Virus record (IMG/VR): IMGVR_UViG_3300017725_000016
Coordinates: 1 to 41,016 of that record
DNA: 41,016 bases
Source of the DNA: a virus
Strand: one strand, 5' to 3'
This document shows positions 124 to 16,617 of the stretch, piece by piece; position 1 is the stretch's first letter; the number at the start of each line of letters is the position of its first letter. The notes beneath the pieces are model-generated. The model saw nothing but the letters and a program-made list of their open reading frames with translations, was not told the DNA's origin and made no database searches. The position numbers were made by a program, and so were the translations under genes.

Positions 124-563
124 ATGAAGAAATGACAAAAGCTCATATCAAATCTGAAGAGGGTTATAAGCTAGAAGCCTATAAATGCACCGAAGGATAC
201 TTAACAGGTGGATATGGACACAGAATTATGGACGGAGAAGCTATACCTTCTGATAAAGCAGGTTGGGAAGCTATCTTTAATGAAGACTATAAAACAGCTA
301 AAATGGGTGCAACAGAACTTGTAGGTAATAGTGAAAATTTACGCCCTCAAGCGTTTGGTCTTATTATAGAAATGGTATATCAAATGGGGACTTATGGTGT
401 CTCTAAGTTTAAGAAGTTTCTTTCTGCTCTTAATCAGGAAGAGCCAGACTATGTAGAAGCGTCTAAGGAGATGTTAGATAGTAAATGGGCTAAACAAACG
501 CCTAACAGAGCTAATAGAATGTCTGAAAGAATGGCTGAAATAGCTACCAAAATATTTGGTTAA
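99..563 (+). CDS. GH24 endolysin (T4-lysozyme-like muramidase)
   Basis: The protein has 154 residues, close to the 164 of T4 lysozyme. Residues about 19-43 carry the GH24 catalytic block: Glu, eight residues, Cys, five residues, Thr (EGYKLEAYKC then TEGYLTGGYGH). T4 lysozyme has Glu11, Asp20 and Thr26 in the same spacing, so the Asp position is Cys here; E-8-(D/C)-5-T is a recognised form in phage endolysins. It should cut the glycan strand between MurNAc and GlcNAc at lysis. No signal peptide or anchor is visible, so it needs a holin for export. The start is fixed by the TAATG overlap with the upstream glucosaminidase, and both are probably transcribed from the promoter at 40439. Confidence 0.9.
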   Translation: MKPNFEEYHEEMTKAHIKSEEGYKLEAYKCTEGYLTGGYGHRIMDGEAIPSDKAGWEAIFNEDYKTAKMGATELVGNSENLRPQAFGLIIEMVYQMGTYGVSKFKKFLSALNQEEPDYVEASKEMLDSKWAKQTPNRANRMSERMAEIATKIFG

Positions 564-612
564 AAAATCTGAAATGGTATACGATATATCGGCACTGTAA
601 TTTTCCCCATTG

Positions 613-659
613 CTTGATTTTTGGTATATCCAAACGACAATAAAACTAGGAAAATCAAG
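613..659. repeat. Inverted repeat with nested palindrome
   Basis: CTTGATTTT at 613-621 is perfectly complementary to AAAATCAAG at 651-659. Between them, TTTGG-TATAT-CCAAA forms a second, smaller palindrome at about 620-634. Such nested symmetry in a non-coding control region could bind a dimeric repressor or the integrase, or form an RNA hairpin. Function is unknown. Confidence 0.45.
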
Positions 660-778
660 GGTTTTTAAAGGCTCTTATAGGACTTTATATCCTTTGTAAC
701 TTTCAAATCTAAACTTTTGTTTTTATTCTGTCTTTGTTTGTGCTCTGGTCTATTTTATTTAGAATGACTATTAATAGT

Positions 779-798
779 TAAAGTTCCCATTATAGAGA
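779..798 (+). promoter_or_regulatory. Phage RNA polymerase promoter P1
   Basis: TAAAGTTCCCATTATAGAGA matches the motif found seven times at transcription-unit boundaries in this genome (TAwAGTwCCCnTnnTAGAnn). By analogy to T7/SP6 promoters, which end in TATAG, transcription probably starts at or near the G of TAGA. This copy has T rather than A before CCC, as does P2. It would transcribe the 34-residue ORF at 876 and, by read-through, the ribozyme region. Confidence 0.75.
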
Positions 799-875
799 TA
801 AAAAGCTCAACTCTATCTATATACTGGGTAGCTACTCACTAACTTATTAATTAAAGAAGGAAGGAAGCAAACACA

Positions 876-980
876 ATGAACGCATGGGATAGGCTCGGCT
901 TCTTTATAGATGACCACGCAAGAGCAATAACAATAACTCAAACAATCATAATAATTATTTTGTTATGTTTTATAATATAA
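876..980 (+). CDS. 34-residue membrane peptide
   Basis: A 34-codon ORF starts with MNAWDRLGFFIDDHARAI and continues into an uninterrupted hydrophobic stretch of Ile, Leu, Phe and Cys to the C-terminus, consistent with one membrane helix with the N-terminus outside it. A strong purine-rich ribosome site (AAGAAGGAAGG, 856-866) lies upstream of the ATG. It stands alone between promoter P1 and a terminator at 988-1024, so it is a monocistronic unit. I do not recognise a family. Small membrane peptides at this position could alter the host envelope or exclude other phages, but that is only a guess. Confidence 0.6.
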   Translation: MNAWDRLGFFIDDHARAITITQTIIIIILLCFII

Positions 981-987
981 TTAAAAG

Positions 988-1024
988 AAGCAGGAACGGC
1001 TAACACGCCGCCGCCTGTTTTTTT
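988..1024 (+). terminator. Rho-independent-type terminator after the 34-aa ORF
   Basis: CAGG (991-994) pairs with CCTG (1014-1017), and CGGC (997-1000) with GCCG (1007-1010). The loop is TAACAC and there is a small internal loop. The stem is followed by seven T (1018-1024). It should end or attenuate transcription from P1; read-through would be needed to reach the ribozyme-associated genes. Confidence 0.75.
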
Positions 1025-1200
1025 CCTTTTTAGAATGATTATAAGTTGCAACAAGGTGCGACAAATCGCACATGCTATTAATGCAACAAAGGATAAAAAG
1101 CATTTGCAATTTAAAATTAGGTATGATTTAAGAAGATATGTTTTTAATTTTTCAAATTTTAAACTTTCAGAGTTTGCAAGATTTACTGAATATAAATAAT
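1025..1200 (+). other. Non-coding, repeat-containing stretch
   Basis: No gene seen. A perfect 6-bp hairpin GTGCGA-CAAA-TCGCAC (1056-1071) is flanked by direct repeats TGCAACAAGG (1047-1056) and TGCAACAAAGG (1082-1092). The arrangement could suit integrase arm sites or an operator. No tRNA 3' end, which would mark an attP core of the type used by integrating pelagiphages, was recognised here. The rest is very AT-rich. Confidence 0.4.
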
Positions 1201-1204
1201 CTTT

Positions 1205-1320
1205 GAGCCTTCGGCGGTTAAATCCTTTTTTAGGATTATATCTGCACAGAGTTGATGTCTAAGGACGAAGGGAAGCCCTCTTAGCTTGAAGGCGATTGCT
1301 GACGCAAAGTAGGTCAAGCT
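1205..1320 (+). ncRNA. Structured RNA segment upstream of the first ribozyme
   Basis: Several hairpins can be drawn one after another. AATCC/GGATT pairs at 1221-1237. CTAAG (1259-1263) pairs with CTTAG (1280-1284) around an inner AGGG/CCCT stem (1269-1279), with a GACGA bulge. CTTGA (1285-1289) pairs with TCAAG (1314-1318) and encloses TTGC-TGAC-GCAA (1296-1307). The last helix ends next to the hammerhead that begins at 1323. No known riboswitch or ribozyme family fits. It may be a regulatory RNA or part of the leader of the gene at 1401. Confidence 0.4.
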
Positions 1321-1322
1321 GT

Positions 1323-1385
1323 TTTTGTTTGTCTCTAGGTATTCAGCCTAGACTGATGAGCTCCAGTAGAGCGAAACAAACAAAA
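1323..1385 (+). ncRNA. Hammerhead ribozyme, type III (HHR1)
   Basis: All parts of a hammerhead are present. Stem III is TTTTGTTTG (1323-1331) with CAAACAAAA (1377-1385), 9 bp. The cleavage triplet is GTC (1331-1333), with cutting between 1333 and 1334. Stem I is TCTAGG (1334-1339) with CCTAGA (1347-1352), loop TATTCAG. The core CTGATGA is at 1353-1359. Stem II is GCTC (1360-1363) with GAGC (1369-1372), loop CAGTA. The second core element GAAA is at 1373-1376. No mismatch is needed. Cleavage would leave a downstream mRNA with a 5'-OH and the stem I hairpin at its very end, 67 nt before the ATG at 1401. The 3' strand of stem III is also the A-rich leader of that gene. Confidence 0.93.
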
Positions 1386-1391
1386 CAAAGG
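1376..1391 (+). promoter_or_regulatory. A-rich translation leader, copy 1
   Basis: ACAAACAAAACAAAGG is the shared leader found upstream of three early genes (also 2065 and 2471). It supplies the Shine-Dalgarno AAAGGA for the ATG at 1401. In this copy the A-rich part is also stem III of HHR1, so ribozyme folding and ribosome access may compete. Confidence 0.65.
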
Positions 1392-1400
1392 ACAATAACA

Positions 1401-1760
1401 ATGGACAATCCATATACAGAAAATCTTGCTGACTTTGGCTACAGAGAGCAAGACGAAGCAAAAGACATTTTTGAAGCGTGGAAGCTGAACGGCTTACCTA
1501 GTGATTTTGAAAATGACGGCGTTAAGTTAGCTTTCAATAAAAATTCAGGTTATGTTTTTTTAACTAATTCTGAATATCAAGTTGCAATGTGTGACGGCGA
1601 TAAAAAATTATATTCTTTTTATAGCTCACCTTATGAAGGCAAAGAAGGGAGCTTTGAAGATTTAAAAGAAGAATATGAAGACATGAACTCAGAAGACAAA
1701 GAATGGTTTTTTGATGTCGCTGAAAATATCAACAGACAACAGGAGCTTACTAATGGCTAA
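1401..1760 (+). CDS. Acidic hypothetical protein (119 aa)
   Basis: The start at 1401 (MDNPYTENLADFGYREQDEA) is preferred over an upstream in-frame ATG at 1296. The longer version would translate straight through the hammerhead at 1323-1385, while 1401 has AAAGGA at suitable spacing. The protein is strongly acidic (about 28 Asp/Glu against 11 Lys/Arg), has no signal peptide or membrane helix, and has an aromatic centre around YVFLTNSEYQVAM. No family was recognised. Small acidic early phage proteins are often inhibitors of host enzymes, sometimes DNA mimics, but nothing here proves that. It overlaps the next gene by 8 bp, implying coupled translation. Confidence 0.75.
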   Translation: MDNPYTENLADFGYREQDEAKDIFEAWKLNGLPSDFENDGVKLAFNKNSGYVFLTNSEYQVAMCDGDKKLYSFYSSPYEGKEGSFEDLKEEYEDMNSEDKEWFFDVAENINRQQELTNG

Positions 1761-1923
1761 ATTTATACACCCTAAAATAAGACGTATGCAAAACGCCGAG
1801 AGCGTGGAGAAATACCAAGACGAGCAAGACCGAAAGCAATTCTTTGCAGACTACAACAAAGAAAAAGACAGAACCAAAAAAATTGAGATGTTAAGAACAG
1901 CAACTCAAAATGCTTGGATATAA
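1753..1923 (+). CDS. Small basic hypothetical protein (56 aa)
   Basis: It begins MAKFIHPKIRRMQNAESVEK at an ATG inside the end of the preceding gene, with AGGAG (1741-1745) upstream. The protein is rich in Lys, Arg, Glu and Gln, is predicted to be helical, and has no membrane segment. The 8-bp overlap with the gene before it indicates translational coupling. A longer frame opens at 1711, but it overlaps the upstream gene by 50 bp and lacks a ribosome site, so 1753 is chosen. No known family. Confidence 0.65.
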   Translation: MAKFIHPKIRRMQNAESVEKYQDEQDRKQFFADYNKEKDRTKKIEMLRTATQNAWI

Positions 1924-1925
1924 AT

Positions 1926-1997
1926 ATGGGTTTATTCATATTTACATTTTTAATGATTGCCTTTTTTATTTGGTGGTCAATTTCTGCGTTTAAATAA
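1926..1997 (+). CDS. Putative 23-residue membrane peptide
   Basis: Two bases after the previous stop, a 24-codon frame encodes MGLFIFTFLMIAFFIWWSIS and three more residues, which is essentially one hydrophobic helix. It has no clear ribosome site and would depend on re-initiation from the upstream gene. Its stop at 1995-1997 lies just before the type II hammerhead at 2002. The composition resembles the other membrane peptides in this region (876, 2094, 2494), but so short a frame could be chance in AT-rich DNA. Confidence 0.35.
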   Translation: MGLFIFTFLMIAFFIWWSISAFK

Positions 1998-2001
1998 ACA
2001 A

Positions 2002-2060
2002 GAGCGAAACAGGGCGGAGCTTCCGCCTTGTCTTGAGGTTATGCCTCAACTGACGAGCTC
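2002..2060 (+). ncRNA. Hammerhead ribozyme, type II (HHR2)
   Basis: Stem II is the open stem: GAGC (2002-2005) pairs with GCTC (2057-2060). GAAA follows at 2006-2009. Stem III is CAGGGCGG (2010-2017) with CCGCCTTG (2023-2030), loop AGCTT, with one G-U pair. The cleavage triplet GTC is at 2030-2032, with cutting between 2032 and 2033. Stem I is TTGAGG (2033-2038) with CCTCAA (2044-2049), loop TTATG. The core CTGACGA is at 2050-2056. All three stems and both core strands are complete. Cleavage would leave a 5'-terminal hairpin on the mRNA for the membrane protein at 2094. Confidence 0.92.
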
Positions 2061-2064
2061 GTAA

Positions 2065-2084
2065 ACAAACAAAACAAACAGGAG
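2065..2084 (+). promoter_or_regulatory. A-rich translation leader, copy 2
   Basis: ACAAACAAAACAAACAGGAG, nearly the same as the leaders at 1376 and 2471, provides the AGGAG ribosome site for the ATG at 2094. Here it lies just outside the ribozyme and should be unstructured. Confidence 0.65.
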
Positions 2085-2093
2085 ATAACAACA

Positions 2094-2378
2094 ATGATTG
2101 ATTTTATAATTTATGGAATAGTTGATAACGGCGTGATGATTTTAGGTGCTATGACTGGCTACGAGTTGGAGCGGTACTTACCAAAAAGACTTCAAAAAGG
2201 TCTGGGTGCTGTCGTAGGTGCCGGACTTGGGAACGCTTGTTCTGATTTCTTGGGCGGTGCTTCTACTGCGTCTTGGGATTTAGCCTTCGGCACAGCTTCA
2301 GGCTGTCTAATAGGTTTAATATTCATTCCGTTATTGGTTTACATTGGTAAACTTAGAAGAGCACACAAAACAAAATAA
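2094..2378 (+). CDS. Small integral membrane protein (94 aa)
   Basis: The protein has a hydrophobic N-terminal segment (IDFIIYGIVDNGVMILGAM), a charged turn (YLPKRLQK), a Gly/Ala-rich middle (LGAVVGAGLGNACSDFLGG) and a C-terminal hydrophobic helix (ASGCLIGLIFIPLLVYIG) followed by a basic tail. Two or three membrane passes are likely. AGGAG lies 9 bases before the ATG. The family appears to be an uncharacterised one that I associate with marine phages and bacteria; no function can be assigned. The stop codon at 2376-2378 abuts the first base of the type I hammerhead at 2379, so the two evolved as one unit. Confidence 0.75.
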   Translation: MIDFIIYGIVDNGVMILGAMTGYELERYLPKRLQKGLGAVVGAGLGNACSDFLGGASTASWDLAFGTASGCLIGLIFIPLLVYIGKLRRAHKTK

Positions 2379-2439
2379 GCAACACTGAAGAGACTTGAAG
2401 AGTCGAAACAGGGCGGACTTGTGCCGCTCTGTCTGTTGC
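2379..2439 (+). ncRNA. Hammerhead ribozyme, type I (HHR3)
   Basis: Stem I is the open stem: GCAACA (2379-2384) pairs with TGTTGC (2434-2439). The core CTGAAGA is at 2385-2391. Stem II is GACT (2392-2395) with AGTC (2401-2404), loop TGAAG. GAAA is at 2405-2408. Stem III is CAGGGCGG (2409-2416) with CCGCTCTG (2424-2431), loop ACTTGTG, with one G-U pair. The cleavage triplet GTC is at 2431-2433, with cutting between 2433 and 2434. The GAAA plus stem III 5' strand is identical to HHR2, suggesting shared origin. It starts on the base after a stop codon, so the ribozyme body would remain as the 3' end of the upstream mRNA. Confidence 0.93.
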
Positions 2440-2443
2440 CTTT

Positions 2444-2463
2444 TAAAGTTCCCATTGGGAGCG
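2444..2463 (+). promoter_or_regulatory. Degenerate phage promoter P2
   Basis: TAAAGTTCCCATTGGGAGCG matches P1 exactly over its first 13 bases and then departs from the TAGA consensus. It begins 10 bp downstream of the HHR3 cleavage site, so a transcript started here would have nearly the same 5' leader as the cleaved one. It may be a weak promoter or a decayed copy. Confidence 0.5.
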
Positions 2464-2470
2464 GAGCAAC

Positions 2471-2487
2471 ACAAACAAAACAAGGAG
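2471..2487 (+). promoter_or_regulatory. A-rich translation leader, copy 3
   Basis: ACAAACAAAACAAGGAG is the third copy of the leader upstream of early genes and contains the AAGGAG ribosome site for the ATG at 2494. Confidence 0.65.
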
Positions 2488-2493
2488 TATAAC

Positions 2494-2625
2494 ATGAAAG
2501 ACACTATTCAATTAATTGGTGGCGTTCTTGGAGCGTTGCTGTTCGTTGGCACTATGTGGGCTTTGGCTTGGGTAGGTTGTGCAATGAGTGACGCTTGTTG
2601 GTATGCTTATACAGGTCAACTGTAA
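2494..2625 (+). CDS. 43-residue membrane peptide
   Basis: The ORF begins MKDTIQLIGGVLGALLFVGT and has one long hydrophobic helix (about residues 6-32) ending in a short polar, aromatic tail with two Cys. The start at 2494 is set by AAGGAG in the leader at 2481; a longer upstream frame would read through HHR3. It is followed one base later by the next gene. Size and shape are like a small holin or another membrane effector, but no family is recognised. Confidence 0.65.
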   Translation: MKDTIQLIGGVLGALLFVGTMWALAWVGCAMSDACWYAYTGQL

Positions 2626-2626
2626 T

Positions 2627-3187
2627 ATGAGCGGAGACCATCAAAGACGTTATGAGATATGGCAACAGCCAGAAACTCGACTGCGTTTTTTATCTAGTGA
2701 AGAATGGGCTTTTGATAATAAGATAGCTCAAAAATGTTGGGGTCACTGGGAGCTTGGCACTTGCGATTATAAAGCCGCAGGTGTGAGCGAGGCAGACTTC
2801 AATAAATACATGGAGATAAGACGCAGGTATCTTGACTGGGAGCATAAGGGTCAAATGGCTTTTCTTTATAGAAGAGACAACGATTGGCAGGAGCTTTGTA
2901 AAAAGTATAATCTTGCAGACTTACCTTATGAATACCGAGAAGAGAAAAAGCGTGACAATCGAAAAGAGCTTCAACAAATTATCCTTCAAGCCGTAAAGGA
3001 TAACACACTGAAGAAGAAGCCATTATTGGCTTTTCTTAGAACTAATAATCCTGACCTTAATTCGTCAGCGATTAATAGGCAACTTAACAAACTACTCAAA
3101 TGTAGAGCTTTAGATATAGACACTAAGTTCAAGACGAAGCGGTACGTTATTATGGGTGCGTACTTTAGCTCACATTACATTAAGTAG
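2627..3187 (+). CDS. Hypothetical protein with C-terminal winged-helix-like region
   Basis: The start at 2627 (MSGDHQRRYEIWQQPETRLR) directly follows the TAA of the preceding gene; a longer frame from 2588 would overlap that gene. The 186-residue protein is basic and has no membrane segment. The last 70 residues (from about ELQQIILQAVKDN, through KKKPLLAFLRTNNPDLNSSA and INRQLNKLLKCRALDID) have the pattern of a winged helix-turn-helix, with a predicted turn at NPDLNSS and a wing near KFKTKRYVIM. Lying immediately upstream of the integrase and closed by a terminator, it is a candidate regulator of lysogeny or of integration. The fold is inferred only from the pattern, and function is unproven. 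Confidence 0.7.
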   Translation: MSGDHQRRYEIWQQPETRLRFLSSEEWAFDNKIAQKCWGHWELGTCDYKAAGVSEADFNKYMEIRRRYLDWEHKGQMAFLYRRDNDWQELCKKYNLADLPYEYREEKKRDNRKELQQIILQAVKDNTLKKKPLLAFLRTNNPDLNSSAINRQLNKLLKCRALDIDTKFKTKRYVIMGAYFSSHYIK

Positions 3188-3195
3188 TGACTGGG

Positions 3196-3242
3196 GACGA
3201 AGGCGTGAGATTAACACAGACAATCACGCCTTTGTCTTTTTT
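3196..3242 (+). terminator. Strong terminator before the integrase
   Basis: GACGAAGGCGTGA (3196-3208) pairs with TCACGCCTTTGTC (3224-3236) as a 13-bp stem with one G-U pair and a 15-nt loop, followed by TTTTTT (3237-3242). It separates the early small-gene region from the integrase, which has its own ribosome site downstream. Confidence 0.85.
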
Positions 3243-3263
3243 AAAATAAACAAAGGAGCAATT

Positions 3264-4052
3264 ATGAAACTTAGACAAGTATATGACAAGCAAGACTGGG
3301 AAAAGTGCCAGTCTCAAAGAGCGTTGTCTGTTATAGATATAATAGGCAACATAGAACCTAAAAATGTAAATGATGAGCATATTGAAAAAGTTAGAAATAG
3401 ACTTGAAAAAAAAGGTTTATCAGGTGCTACAATTAATAGATACTTAGCGTCTTTATCTAAACTTTTAAAGTATGCTCATAAGCGTTATACAATTTTTAAT
3501 ATGGAGCGTATGCCGCACATTGAATGGTATAAAGAGAGCAAAGGTAGAATAAGATATATAAGCAAAAAAGAAGAAGCTAAAATTATTGAGCTATTAAAGG
3601 ACTCAGAATATCTGAGCCTTTATCTTTTTCTTATGGATACTGGAATGAGATTGAGCGAGGCACTTTCATTTACTAAAGAGGATATTCAAGAGCTTGGAGA
3701 CAAAACTTATATAACTTTATATGGTACTAAAAATGGAGACACTAGAAGCGTTCCATTAACAGACAGAGCCAAGAAACTAGGAGTCAATACTTTTAAACAT
3801 TTAGATTATTGGAAAGCTGAGAACACTTGGAAACAGTTGCGTAAAGACATGGGACTAGCAAATGATAAGCAATTTGTTATTCATGCTTTACGTCATACTT
3901 GTGCGTCAAGATTGGCTCAGTCAGGTAAGATTGAGTTACACATAATAAAAGAATTATTAGGTCATAGAAGCTATAATACGACTTTAAGATATAGTCATTT
4001 TAAACCTAGTAATTTATTAGGAGCGGTGGACATTTTAAATAACTTAGATTAA
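3264..4052 (+). CDS. Tyrosine-type site-specific integrase
   Basis: The protein has 262 residues. An N-terminal SAM-like core-binding region (about residues 15-90, including a VRNRLEKKGLSGATINRYL pattern) precedes the catalytic domain. The catalytic set is complete: Arg in TGMRLSEA (about 127), Lys in GTKNGDTRSVPL, HALRH (about 205-209), His in LLGHRSY (about 233) and the nucleophile Tyr in TLRYSHF (about 242). It should insert the phage genome into a host attachment site. The ATG at 3264 is chosen for AAAGGAG upstream; a longer frame runs back through the terminator. An integrase just ahead of the RNA polymerase is the arrangement seen in integrating pelagiphages. The attachment site was not found. 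Confidence 0.93.
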   Translation: MKLRQVYDKQDWEKCQSQRALSVIDIIGNIEPKNVNDEHIEKVRNRLEKKGLSGATINRYLASLSKLLKYAHKRYTIFNMERMPHIEWYKESKGRIRYISKKEEAKIIELLKDSEYLSLYLFLMDTGMRLSEALSFTKEDIQELGDKTYITLYGTKNGDTRSVPLTDRAKKLGVNTFKHLDYWKAENTWKQLRKDMGLANDKQFVIHALRHTCASRLAQSGKIELHIIKELLGHRSYNTTLRYSHFKPSNLLGAVDILNNLD

Positions 4053-4069
4053 AGTACCCATTATAGATT
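4050..4069 (+). promoter_or_regulatory. Phage RNA polymerase promoter P3
   Basis: TAAAGTACCCATTATAGATT overlaps the integrase stop codon and lies about 30 bp upstream of the RNA polymerase ATG. It implies that the phage polymerase transcribes its own gene once the first molecules are made. Confidence 0.8.
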
Positions 4070-4100
4070 AACCACAACCATCACTTAAGGAGTGTTAATA

Positions 4101-6545
4101 ATGACAAAACTATTAGAAGTAATGCCTACTTATAAAGACCAAGTTGAACATGAAAAGCAAATGCTTGAGCTTGGAAAACAAAGAACTAATAAAAGAAGAC
4201 AGTCTCATGTTGAGCGTGAGGAAGAGTCTGTAACGAGTTACGGAAAAGTAATGGTAGCAAATACCATAAGACCTTTAGCAATAGGTATAAAAGAATACCT
4301 TGAGACATGTGCTAAGAATACAATAGGGCAACCACCAGTAGCTTTCATGCACCTTGCAGGAGTAGACCCTGAAATATCCGCCCTCATCACAGCCAAACAT
4401 ATCATTAATACAATCACACAATACAAACCACTTACCGCTACTTGTATTAGCTTAGGTGGTAAAATCGAAACAGAAGAACAGCTTAAGAATTTTCAGTTTT
4501 TAAATCCTGAGCTTTACCAAGTAGTAAAGTTAGACCTTGATAAGAGGTCATGGAACTATGCTTACAAAAGAAGGAAGCTAAGGGAGACAGCCAAAAGAGG
4601 AGAGGTAGCTTGGACTGAGTGGACTACACCTCAAAAACTACATGTTGGTATTCGTCTAGTTGAGCTTATGGTTGAGAAGACAGGGCTAATTGAAATTGGC
4701 ACTGAGACTATCAATCGTAAAAGAACTAAGATTATTAAACAGACTCAAAAAACTAGAGAGTGGATTAAAAATAGAAATGAGTTTAACGAACTGTTAAACC
4801 CAGAGTACCTGCCAACAGTTATGCCGCCGAAACAATGGACGTCTGTAAGTGGCGGCGGTTATTGGACTTCAGAGCTACCAGAGCTTGACCTTGTTAAACA
4901 AAGAAACAAGAAGTTTAAGAAAGAGCTTGAGAACTTTAAAATGCCTGAAGTTTACAGTGCAGTAAATGCAATGCAGAACACAGCGTTTAAGGTAAACAAC
5001 TTTATACTAGGCGTTATGCAAGAGGCTTGGGACAAAGGAATAGCCATAGGCGGTATGCCGCCATTAACAAACATGGAGATACCTAATAAGCCACATGACA
5101 TAGACACTAATGCTGAGAGTAGAAAAGCATGGAAGAAACAAGCAGTCGTAGCTCATACTGAAAATGCTAGAATGTTTAGTAAGCGTTTATTGTATGCTAA
5201 AATTATTTGGTTAGCTCAAAAGTTTAAGCAATACAAAACAATTTACTTTCCATTACAATTAGATTTCAGAGGGCGTTGTTATGCTGTCCCTGCTTTTCTT
5301 AACTATCAAAGTATAAGTGGAGCTAAGGCTTTGTTAAACTTTAGTTATGGTAAAGCTATCACAAAAGAAAACAAAGGTGATTTCTGGTTAGCCGTACATG
5401 GAGCTAACATGTGGGGTAAAGATAAGCAAACACTTGAAGGTAGAGTTGAGTGGGTAAAAGAAAATGAAGACATGCTTATTAAATGTGCTGAAGACCCATT
5501 TACTAATAGACAGTGGGAAGACGCTTCATCTCCGTTTCAAGCTCTAGCATTTTGTGAAGAGTGGAGACAGTTTAAAGAACAAGGCTATGGGTTTGTCTCA
5601 ACAATACCAGTTGCGATTGATGGCTCATGTAATGGACTACAATTATATTCTTTAATGCTTAAAGATAAAGAAGCAGGAAAATTAGTTAATGTAGTGCCAA
5701 GTAAAACACCACAAGACATTTATCAGTTAGTTGCTGATAGTGTGACTGAGCGTTTAAAAGAAGAAGCACAAAAAGGAACAGTCTATGCTCAGATGTGGTT
5801 AGACTATAAAGTTAAGCGGAGCACAACAAAGAGAAGTATTATGACAATCTGTTATGGGTCAACAAGATACTCATGCACAGACTTTGTTGTTGAAGACTTA
5901 ACTAAACGACAGGATAAAGGAGAGAAGCACCCATTCTTTACAGATGTTTTTAAACCTGCAAGTTTCTTAGCAGGAATTATCTGGGACAGTATTGGAGACA
6001 ATTTAAAAAGTGCTCGAATAGGAATGGATTATCTGCAAACGATTTCAAGATTGTTAGCAAAAGAACAGTTACCTATTCATTGGATAACACCAGTTGGATT
6101 TCCAGTGTATCAATCATATCCTGAAATGAAAAGCAAACGAGTCAAAGCAATGTTAATGGGTGAAGTTATTAAACCTAGAATAAACACTGAGACTGATAAG
6201 ACCGACAAGTTGCGAATGAGTAATGCTATTGCACCTAATCTGGTTCATAGCACTGACTCTGCCGCAATGATGAAGACTACAAACATAGCTTATGAAAATG
6301 GCATTAGAAATTTTTGTAATGTCCATGATTCATTTGCTACTACAGCAGGAGATGTAGAAACATTGACTGCAAGTTTAAAGGAAGCGTTCATACAAATATT
6401 TACTGAACATGATGTGTTGAAAGAATTTAAAGAAGATGTCTTTCACCAGATACCTGAAAACTTAAGAGCTAAATTACCTGACGTACCTGAGAAGGGTGAT
6501 TTAGATATAACATTACTCAGGGAATGTGACTTTTTCTTTGCTTAA
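4101..6545 (+). CDS. T7-type single-subunit DNA-directed RNA polymerase
   Basis: The protein has 814 residues (T7: 883). Hallmarks in order: LDFRGRCYAVP (about 386; T7 DWRGRVYAV), the catalytic Asp in AIDGSCNGLQ (about 506), the Lys and Tyr in TKRSIMTICYGS (about 575-587; T7 Lys631 and Tyr639), NVHDSFATT with the second catalytic Asp (about 741), and a C-terminus ending in DFFFA like T7 DFAFA. The specificity loop region (KRVKAMLMGEVIKPRINTE) differs from T7 at the base-reading positions, fitting a different promoter sequence. AAGGAG at 4087 sets the ATG at 4101. It would transcribe the middle and late genes from the TAwAGTwCCC promoters listed here. Confidence 0.96.
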   Translation: MTKLLEVMPTYKDQVEHEKQMLELGKQRTNKRRQSHVEREEESVTSYGKVMVANTIRPLAIGIKEYLETCAKNTIGQPPVAFMHLAGVDPEISALITAKHIINTITQYKPLTATCISLGGKIETEEQLKNFQFLNPELYQVVKLDLDKRSWNYAYKRRKLRETAKRGEVAWTEWTTPQKLHVGIRLVELMVEKTGLIEIGTETINRKRTKIIKQTQKTREWIKNRNEFNELLNPEYLPTVMPPKQWTSVSGGGYWTSELPELDLVKQRNKKFKKELENFKMPEVYSAVNAMQNTAFKVNNFILGVMQEAWDKGIAIGGMPPLTNMEIPNKPHDIDTNAESRKAWKKQAVVAHTENARMFSKRLLYAKIIWLAQKFKQYKTIYFPLQLDFRGRCYAVPAFLNYQSISGAKALLNFSYGKAITKENKGDFWLAVHGANMWGKDKQTLEGRVEWVKENEDMLIKCAEDPFTNRQWEDASSPFQALAFCEEWRQFKEQGYGFVSTIPVAIDGSCNGLQLYSLMLKDKEAGKLVNVVPSKTPQDIYQLVADSVTERLKEEAQKGTVYAQMWLDYKVKRSTTKRSIMTICYGSTRYSCTDFVVEDLTKRQDKGEKHPFFTDVFKPASFLAGIIWDSIGDNLKSARIGMDYLQTISRLLAKEQLPIHWITPVGFPVYQSYPEMKSKRVKAMLMGEVIKPRINTETDKTDKLRMSNAIAPNLVHSTDSAAMMKTTNIAYENGIRNFCNVHDSFATTAGDVETLTASLKEAFIQIFTEHDVLKEFKEDVFHQIPENLRAKLPDVPEKGDLDITLLRECDFFFA

Positions 6546-15666: not shown

Positions 15667-16617
15667 ATGGGATTATTTGAAGAACGAGTACATTACAAAC
15701 CATTTCAATACGAATGGGCTTTTGAAGCGTATGAGCTACAGCAACAAATGCACTGGCTTCCTAGTGAAGTACCTTTGCATGAAGATGTAAGAGATTGGAA
15801 TGATAGATTAACAGCTAATGAGAAAAATCTGATTAATCAAATACTAAAGTTCTTCACACAAGGTGATGTAGATATAGCAAAAGCATACCTTGATAATTAC
15901 ATTCCTAAATTTAAACCACCAGAAATAAGAATGATGTTGTCTGCTATTGCAACAAGTGAAGCAAATCATGCACAAAGTTATTCATTACTAAATGATACAA
16001 TCGGTTTACCTGAATCTGATTACAAAGCATTTCAAGAATATAAACAGATGGCTGATAAACATGAATACTTATTTAAAAGTAAAGGCAAAGGTTTATCAGG
16101 ACTAGCTAGAGAGATGGCATGTTTCTCTGCATTTGGTGAAGGCTTACAACTGTTTGCTTCTTTTGTAATGCTACTAAACTTCTCAAGGTTTGGTCGTATG
16201 AAAGGAATGTGTCAGATAGTTACATGGTCTATAAGAGATGAGACACACCATGTTGAAAGCATGATTAAATTGTTTCATCAATTAATAAAAGAGAACCCTG
16301 ATATTTGGACAGAAAAATTTAAAGCAAGTATCTATCAAACATGTAGAGATATGGTAGACTTAGAAGATAGGTTTATTGATTTAGCATTTGATATGGGTGG
16401 TGTGCAGGGACTAACACCTGACCAAGTTAAAGAATATATAAGATACATTGCAGATAGAAGACTATTACAACTGTCTTTAAAACCTAATTATGGTGTAAAA
16501 CACAACCCTTTAGGTTGGTTAGATTGGGTTTTAAATGGAGTAGAACATGCGAATTTCTTTGAAAACAGGGCTACTGAGTACAATAAAGGGACACTCACAG
16601 GCTCACTATGGAAGTAA
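15667..16617 (+). CDS. Ribonucleotide reductase class I, beta subunit
   Basis: The protein has 316 residues. It holds the di-metal site and radical: Asp in FFTQGDVDIA, then ATSEANHAQSYSLLNDTIG, which supplies Glu, His and, four residues after the His, the radical Tyr (about 98-105). The later ligands are Glu in FGEGLQLF and Glu/His in IRDETHHVE. All six ligand positions and the Tyr are present, so an ordinary Tyr-radical enzyme is expected. It works with the alpha subunit encoded at 13734. The stop codon TAA is the first part of promoter P5. Confidence 0.93.
   Translation: MGLFEERVHYKPFQYEWAFEAYELQQQMHWLPSEVPLHEDVRDWNDRLTANEKNLINQILKFFTQGDVDIAKAYLDNYIPKFKPPEIRMMLSAIATSEANHAQSYSLLNDTIGLPESDYKAFQEYKQMADKHEYLFKSKGKGLSGLAREMACFSAFGEGLQLFASFVMLLNFSRFGRMKGMCQIVTWSIRDETHHVESMIKLFHQLIKENPDIWTEKFKASIYQTCRDMVDLEDRFIDLAFDMGGVQGLTPDQVKEYIRYIADRRLLQLSLKPNYGVKHNPLGWLDWVLNGVEHANFFENRATEYNKGTLTGSLWK

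Follow-up and report, generated by a model that had tools for sequence, protein, structure and literature searches.

Hammerhead ribozymes of types I, II and III among the early genes of T7-like SAR11 phages, and a proposed RNA-based processing of early mRNA

The polycistronic early mRNA of phage T7 is cut between cistrons by host RNase III, yielding mRNAs with hairpin ends. A T7-like phage of SAR11, the commonest bacteria of the ocean, raises the question of whether the corresponding cuts might be made by the RNA itself. The window analyzed here, a stretch of 41,016 nucleotides (IMG/VR record IMGVR_UViG_3300017725_000016), is a T7-like phage genome with the SAR11 phages HTVC109P and HTVC031P as near kin. 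An earlier reading, made from the letters alone and here called the sequence-only reading, had placed three self-cleaving RNAs in one early operon of this genome. The order of its genes, from small genes through an integrase to a T7-like RNA polymerase, fits such an operon; the early status, together with the extent of the transcription unit and its promoters, is inferred from this order only. The features of the region are as follows.

1203..1322, + strand: leader A, a structured leader RNA opening the early region, immediately before the type III ribozyme (alignment and covariation)
1323..1385, + strand: type III hammerhead, predicted cleavage C1333|U1334 (core, stems, RF00008, minimum-energy fold, covariation)
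1387..1392, + strand: AAAGGA, ribosome-binding site of the gene at 1401, just past the type III ribozyme's stem III (sequence)
1401..1760, + strand: early gene, 119 residues, unknown function (open reading frame, homologues found)
1753..1923, + strand: early gene, 56 residues, unknown function (open reading frame)
1926..1997, + strand: possible membrane peptide of 23 residues, stop codon 4 nt 5' of the type II ribozyme (open reading frame only)
2002..2060, + strand: type II hammerhead, predicted cleavage C2032|U2033 (core, stems, minimum-energy fold, covariation)
2080..2084, + strand: AGGAG, ribosome-binding site of the gene at 2094, within an A/C-rich leader (sequence)
2094..2378, + strand: early gene for a membrane protein of 94 residues (open reading frame; weak TMEM65 match, Pfam 25.2 bits against a cut-off of 25)
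2379..2439, + strand: type I hammerhead, predicted cleavage C2433|U2434 (core, stems, RAGATH-1-hammerhead, minimum-energy fold, covariation)
2443..2462, + strand: promoter-like motif TTAAAGTTCCCATTGGGAGC, 4 nt 3' of the type I ribozyme (motif search)
2494..2625, + strand: early gene for a membrane protein of 43 residues, 3' of the type I ribozyme (open reading frame)
2627..3187, + strand: early gene, 186 residues, unknown function (open reading frame, homologues found)
3264..4052, + strand: tyrosine integrase (PHROG 1, E 2e-45; PF00589)
4101..6545, + strand: T7-like single-subunit RNA polymerase (PHROG 414, E 4e-254; PF00940)

The 119-residue product has no match in Pfam or PHROGs. The type I ribozyme starts immediately after the stop codon of the 94-residue gene, which would be the lone cistron between the predicted type II and type I cuts. 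In relatives, homologues of the 43-residue gene sit after a ribozyme of type I or type II. The ribozyme region extends no further downstream than the RNA polymerase gene, past which neither the window nor its relatives have a ribozyme.

Analysis of the three elements revealed coding-strand hammerheads of types III, II and I, at exactly the coordinates and with exactly the predicted cleavage sites that the sequence-only reading had given. Its description of their anatomy is equally accurate. All core bases are present in each element, namely CUGANGA, GAAA, the pairs G10.1-C11.1 and A15.1-U16.1 and a C at position 17, and the stems pair without mismatch, with 7/4/10, 7/4/11 and 6/5/9 pairs in stems I/II/III, a few of them G-U. 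The helices are open at stem III, II and I for types III, II and I, respectively. A scan of both strands of the 41 kb for the three topologies found these three and no others, and the best chance match in 50 shuffled windows had 14 paired positions, compared to 20-22 in the real elements; shuffles of the window and of its relatives ruled out a chance origin. Moreover, the minimum-energy structure of each element is the hammerhead, with z values of -2.7 (type III), -3.75 (type II) and -3.2 (type I).

The search of the window with Rfam covariance models, which the same reading had named as a check, gave a divided result. Nothing exceeded the curated cut-offs, and matches below threshold were found for type III (RF00008, 41.2 bits, E 1e-5, cut-off 48.5) and type I (RAGATH-1-hammerhead, 29.1 bits, cut-off 56.3); type II was absent from the match list of this search. 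The curated cut-off is an aid to classification and not a biochemical requirement. At these cut-offs Rfam also reported none in 14 relatives that hold about 40 covarying hammerheads, and because such clear, covarying relatives fall short likewise, the low scores reflect a limit of model coverage. The window ribozymes share the catalytic core and the three-stem fold with the families RF00008 (type III), RF02276 (type II), RF02275 (HH9) and RF03152 (RAGATH-1-hammerhead), but differ from them in short stems and other loops, and score under every curated cut-off. This shortfall likely explains why these ribozymes have gone without annotation.

Conservation of the paired bases in relatives, which had been put forward as a possible refutation if absent, is clear. 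Double compensatory changes occur in all three stems of every type, in sets of 49 (type I), 23 (type II) and 24 (type III) distinct sequences that were chosen only by a minimal core and short stems, with pairs counted outward from the core. It is close to certain that the three RNAs are hammerheads; their magnesium-dependent self-cleavage is inferred. The stem II loop of type III carries a recurrent CAG-type motif, and a pairing between the loops of stems I and II, the kind of contact that goes with fast cleavage, is not established. A pseudoknot between loop I and the 3' tail of type II, as in PMC3088659, was unconvincing in the pelagiphage group. As a separate observation, stem III of the type II ribozyme (2010-2032) and that of the type I ribozyme (2409-2433) are near-identical in sequence, a likeness that suggests possible recombination between ribozymes of different topology.

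Relatives were gathered as metagenomic contigs by their RNA polymerase alone, not by ribozyme, and scanned afterwards, which avoids circularity. Of these, 31 contigs extend 2.5 kb or more upstream of the polymerase (21 once near-duplicates are merged), and each of them has 2-5 hammerheads. In total, 130 hammerheads were found in 46 contigs, compared to a chance expectation of 0.05 from shuffles; all 130 have the coding-strand orientation and precede the polymerase gene, and 300 kb downstream of that gene in the same contigs contain zero. The most frequent orders are III-I-II-I and I-I-I, and type III, where present, comes first. Among cultured Pelagivirus isolates, 12 of 13 carry at least one hammerhead, with the order II, I, II in HTVC109P, and III, II, I plus another III at the record end in HTVC031P. 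Cleavage is predicted after positions 296, 1333, 2148 and 40986 of HTVC031P (MH598800), after 593, 1158 and 2350 of HTVC109P (MH598805), after 8839, 9298 and 10098 of Eistla (MT375521), and at 2353|2354 of HTVC022P (MH598798). The presence of one to five hammerheads per early region is a trait of the whole group, found in nearly all members examined. Since nearly all relatives have them in the same early region, the early messages are probably cut by RNA alone. The ribozymes are not indispensable, as HTVC105P has no hammerhead detected in its first 7 kb, though its downstream gene is common to HTVC121P.

Three details of cultured isolates stand beside these counts. In the type III ribozyme of HTVC121P (661-777), the loop of stem II is lengthened by an insertion of roughly 60 nt. 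Two genes of HTVC109P, gp03 and gp05, have annotated starts (589 and 1121) that fall inside ribozymes at 563-621 and 1105-1164; these starts are likely mis-annotated. An automatic second type III call in HTVC031P (245-339) was an alternative pairing of one core and was left uncounted.

Across relatives, the ribozymes recur before the same genes, and units of a gene plus its ribozyme seem to be gained and lost. Upstream of the 43-residue gene, a switch of topology from type I to type II was considered and set aside; identical flanks just 5' of type II in the contigs L017 and L088/L021 suggest that the exchange is instead the loss of such a unit. Hammerheads that spread by recombination and are useless to the phage might also come and go in this manner, and might leave copies as alike as the two stems III of the window. 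Yet neutral or selfish elements sit poorly with a set confined in 130 of 130 cases to the coding strand before the polymerase, with recurrence at the same genes and with compensatory changes; already disfavoured by these data, this explanation is in our judgment very improbable.

The placement of the ribozymes between genes is regular. A stop codon lies at most 30 nt upstream of 54/60 type I and 23/24 type II ribozymes (control 13-15%), and a start codon with a ribosome-binding site lies at most 60 nt downstream of 94 of 110 ribozymes (control 16-18%). Type II starts at a median of 4 nt past the stop codon, and type III ends at a median of 16 nt before the start codon. In type I, the upstream stop codon overlaps the ribozyme in 39 of 60 cases, usually as a TAA within the GUAACAC of stem I, and most of the others begin 0-2 nt past the stop codon. 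Such overlap might mean that the 5' strand and the core of type I are masked by the ribosome as it terminates, so that cleavage would report translation of the upstream gene and act as a feedback switch. However, type II abuts stop codons too, and the window's own stop codon abuts its type I ribozyme without overlap; because phage genomes are compact and type II shows the same adjacency, plain packing may account for it. We regard such gating by translation as a tentative possibility. It is compatible with processing, and the weight we give it is not taken from the processing explanation.

The ends that cleavage would leave are also structured. The sequence-only reading had assigned hairpins to the downstream products of types III and II and to the upstream product of type I, and this assignment is correct. 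In types II and III, the downstream product would open directly with stem I as a hairpin, and in types I and II the upstream product ends in stem III itself. Because a type I cut gives the downstream mRNA no 5' hairpin of its own, protection of both ends cannot serve as one rule for every site. The ends of the upstream pieces are strongly structured, including those at type III junctions, where the hairpin does not come from the ribozyme (median -12.5 versus -5.9 kcal/mol, p 3e-9). Intercistronic type III ribozymes have a separate GC-rich hairpin just 5' of the ribozyme, and behind leader B the partner of stem III is present in a further copy upstream, with which the released strand can form a 3'-terminal hairpin; a 3'-terminal fold-back of this kind is possible in 18 of 30 distinct type III ribozymes.

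Terminal hairpins and 5'-OH ends have known effects on mRNA stability. Cleavage might in principle serve to shut off early expression, with the 5'-OH fragments degraded by host nucleases and early mRNA short-lived once ribosomes clear. A placement restricted to early genes would suit a class expressed transiently, and the stop codons in or beside type I would couple cleavage to the departure of the ribosome. Nevertheless, both new ends are usually capped by hairpins, and almost every site has a ribosome-binding site and start codon after it, as if the downstream mRNA were being readied for translation. We consider shut-off quite unlikely.

At the 5' end of the array, the first-position type III ribozymes lie mostly directly behind one of two leaders. 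Leader A is about 120 nt long and leader B about 180 nt; they look unrelated, and both are structured and lie 5' of the first type III. Leader B takes the place of leader A in other members (1524-1704 in L028, 40797-40978 in L003). In an alignment of 11 relatives, 16 of the 19 predicted pairs of leader A keep their pairing via changes on both sides, whereas the sequence of leader B is too conserved for covariation to be informative. Neither leader has a match in Rfam, and their proposed roles, in antitermination or as released noncoding RNAs, are guesses.

The covariation of leader A, the position of type III directly behind the leaders and the 3'-terminal hairpin open to the released leader B strand would all be expected if the leader were the main product, a noncoding RNA given a defined 3' end by type III, with the other ribozymes secondary. 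This explanation leaves the type I and II ribozymes between later genes, and the loci whose ribozymes are all of type I or II, unaccounted for, and the leader, whose function is unknown, may act in cis on transcription. We therefore rank it as unlikely, and return to the processing of the whole early mRNA.

The sequence-only reading had inferred an RNA-based system of operon processing, and this inference is supported by the restriction of the ribozymes to the early region and the coding strand, their placement from stop codon to ribosome-binding site, their covariation and their recurrence. We propose that the hammerheads serve intercistronic processing of early mRNA, which we judge probable; cleavage in the cell is inferred. 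In this model, the hammerheads would cut the early transcript of SAR11 podoviruses during transcription. Type III, by the cut at 1333, would free the first mRNA of its structured leader RNA, and types II and I would split off later cistrons. Each cut is expected to leave a 2',3'-cyclic phosphate at the 3' end and a 5'-OH at the 5' end, and the downstream pieces of types II and III would begin with a 5' stem I hairpin, followed by an A/C-rich leader, a ribosome-binding site and a start codon. The early message is thereby predicted to end up as several short mRNAs that have structured ends and whose decay and translation would be uncoupled. That processing stabilizes early mRNAs is plausible and inferred, as no cleavage, 5'-end or decay data exist for any pelagiphage; any effect of cleavage on the lifetime or expression of early mRNA is an inference likewise. 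A wider scheme of RNA-only maturation of the whole early transcript, in which type III frees a new leader family, ribozymes placed by topology give hairpin ends to the upstream pieces, and terminating ribosomes hold off the stop-containing type I so that cutting follows translation, is conceivable but speculative in our estimate.

Searches for transcription signals gave leads only. A promoter-like motif TTAAAGTNCCCATTATAG is repeated in the window at 778-797, 2443-2462 and 4049-4068, with weaker copies at 16614 and 32418, and a motif of this type also occurs in HTVC109P (L002) near 1205 and 40655. It is possibly a promoter of the phage RNA polymerase; with 5 matches versus 2.0 expected, the statistics for TTAAAGTNCCCATT are weak and the motif is a lead only. 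A scan of window positions 560-4150 for sigma-70 promoters and terminators found no excess of promoters. Just 5' of the integrase (3200-3240), a hairpin AAGGCGTGA...TCACGCCTT is followed by a T-rich run and is possibly a terminator. In one relative (L124), the gap 5' of the integrase homologue holds a type II hammerhead.

Clustered hammerheads in prophages, and the proposal that they process operons, were published in 2011 (Perreault et al., PMC3088659); three phage arrays cleaved themselves in vitro, one of them also in E. coli. In both systems, single genes or short runs of genes are bordered by several hammerheads of types I-III, and the window and its relatives meet the description of several coding-strand hammerheads in such positions. 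The 2011 arrays lie in prophages with variable genes, whereas the present ones belong to SAR11 podoviruses, occur in nearly every member examined and only upstream of the RNA polymerase, and place type III first, behind a conserved leader. The sequence-only reading had judged that a set of all three topologies in one operon would be notable; the ordered mixture of topologies is new, and both the clustering of types I-III and the processing idea were published before (PMC3088659). What is new here is the SAR11 phage host group, the near-universal occurrence, the restriction to the early region, the ordered mixture and the leader RNA families. The lytic haloviruses HF1/HF2 also have a hammerhead variant, HHphage, ahead of an early gene, and a 5' end was mapped at most three nucleotides from its cleavage site (PMC3088659); it is a lone variant 5' of one helicase gene, not an array. 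A 2017 review described the roles of prokaryotic hammerheads as an open question (PMC6155905).

Compared to T7, where a host protein makes the cut, the RNA itself would do so here, and the same scan, applied to the T7 and P-SSP7 early regions, found no hammerhead. If the proposal is true, a T7-like group punctuates its early mRNA by RNA catalysis where T7 uses a host enzyme. Among openly licensed papers, a search by title and abstract for hammerheads together with pelagiphage or Pelagibacter returned nothing relevant, and an integrase search of genomes for SAR11 prophages gave a sole match that was distant, in Clostridia. Stranded RNA-seq of an HTVC022P infection exists (PMC12753301; PRJNA1253180) and could test one predicted cut. 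With these data, regular sites in a cultured and ecologically important group, natural variants in number and topology, and HTVC105P with none detected, the question of the hammerheads' roles is directly testable.

Arrays of another kind were seen outside this group. Streptomyces phage Yara (L113, MH019215, 49000-62000) has 8 hammerheads in 13 kb, all of type II, and Rfam at curated cut-offs misses this array of eight. Because the curated thresholds miss such ribozymes, phage ribozyme arrays are probably under-reported. Type II-only arrays of up to 10 also occur in the metagenomic contigs L048, L054, L047 and L072, and in the type II-only arrays a ribosome-binding site and start codon lie closely 3' of most ribozymes.
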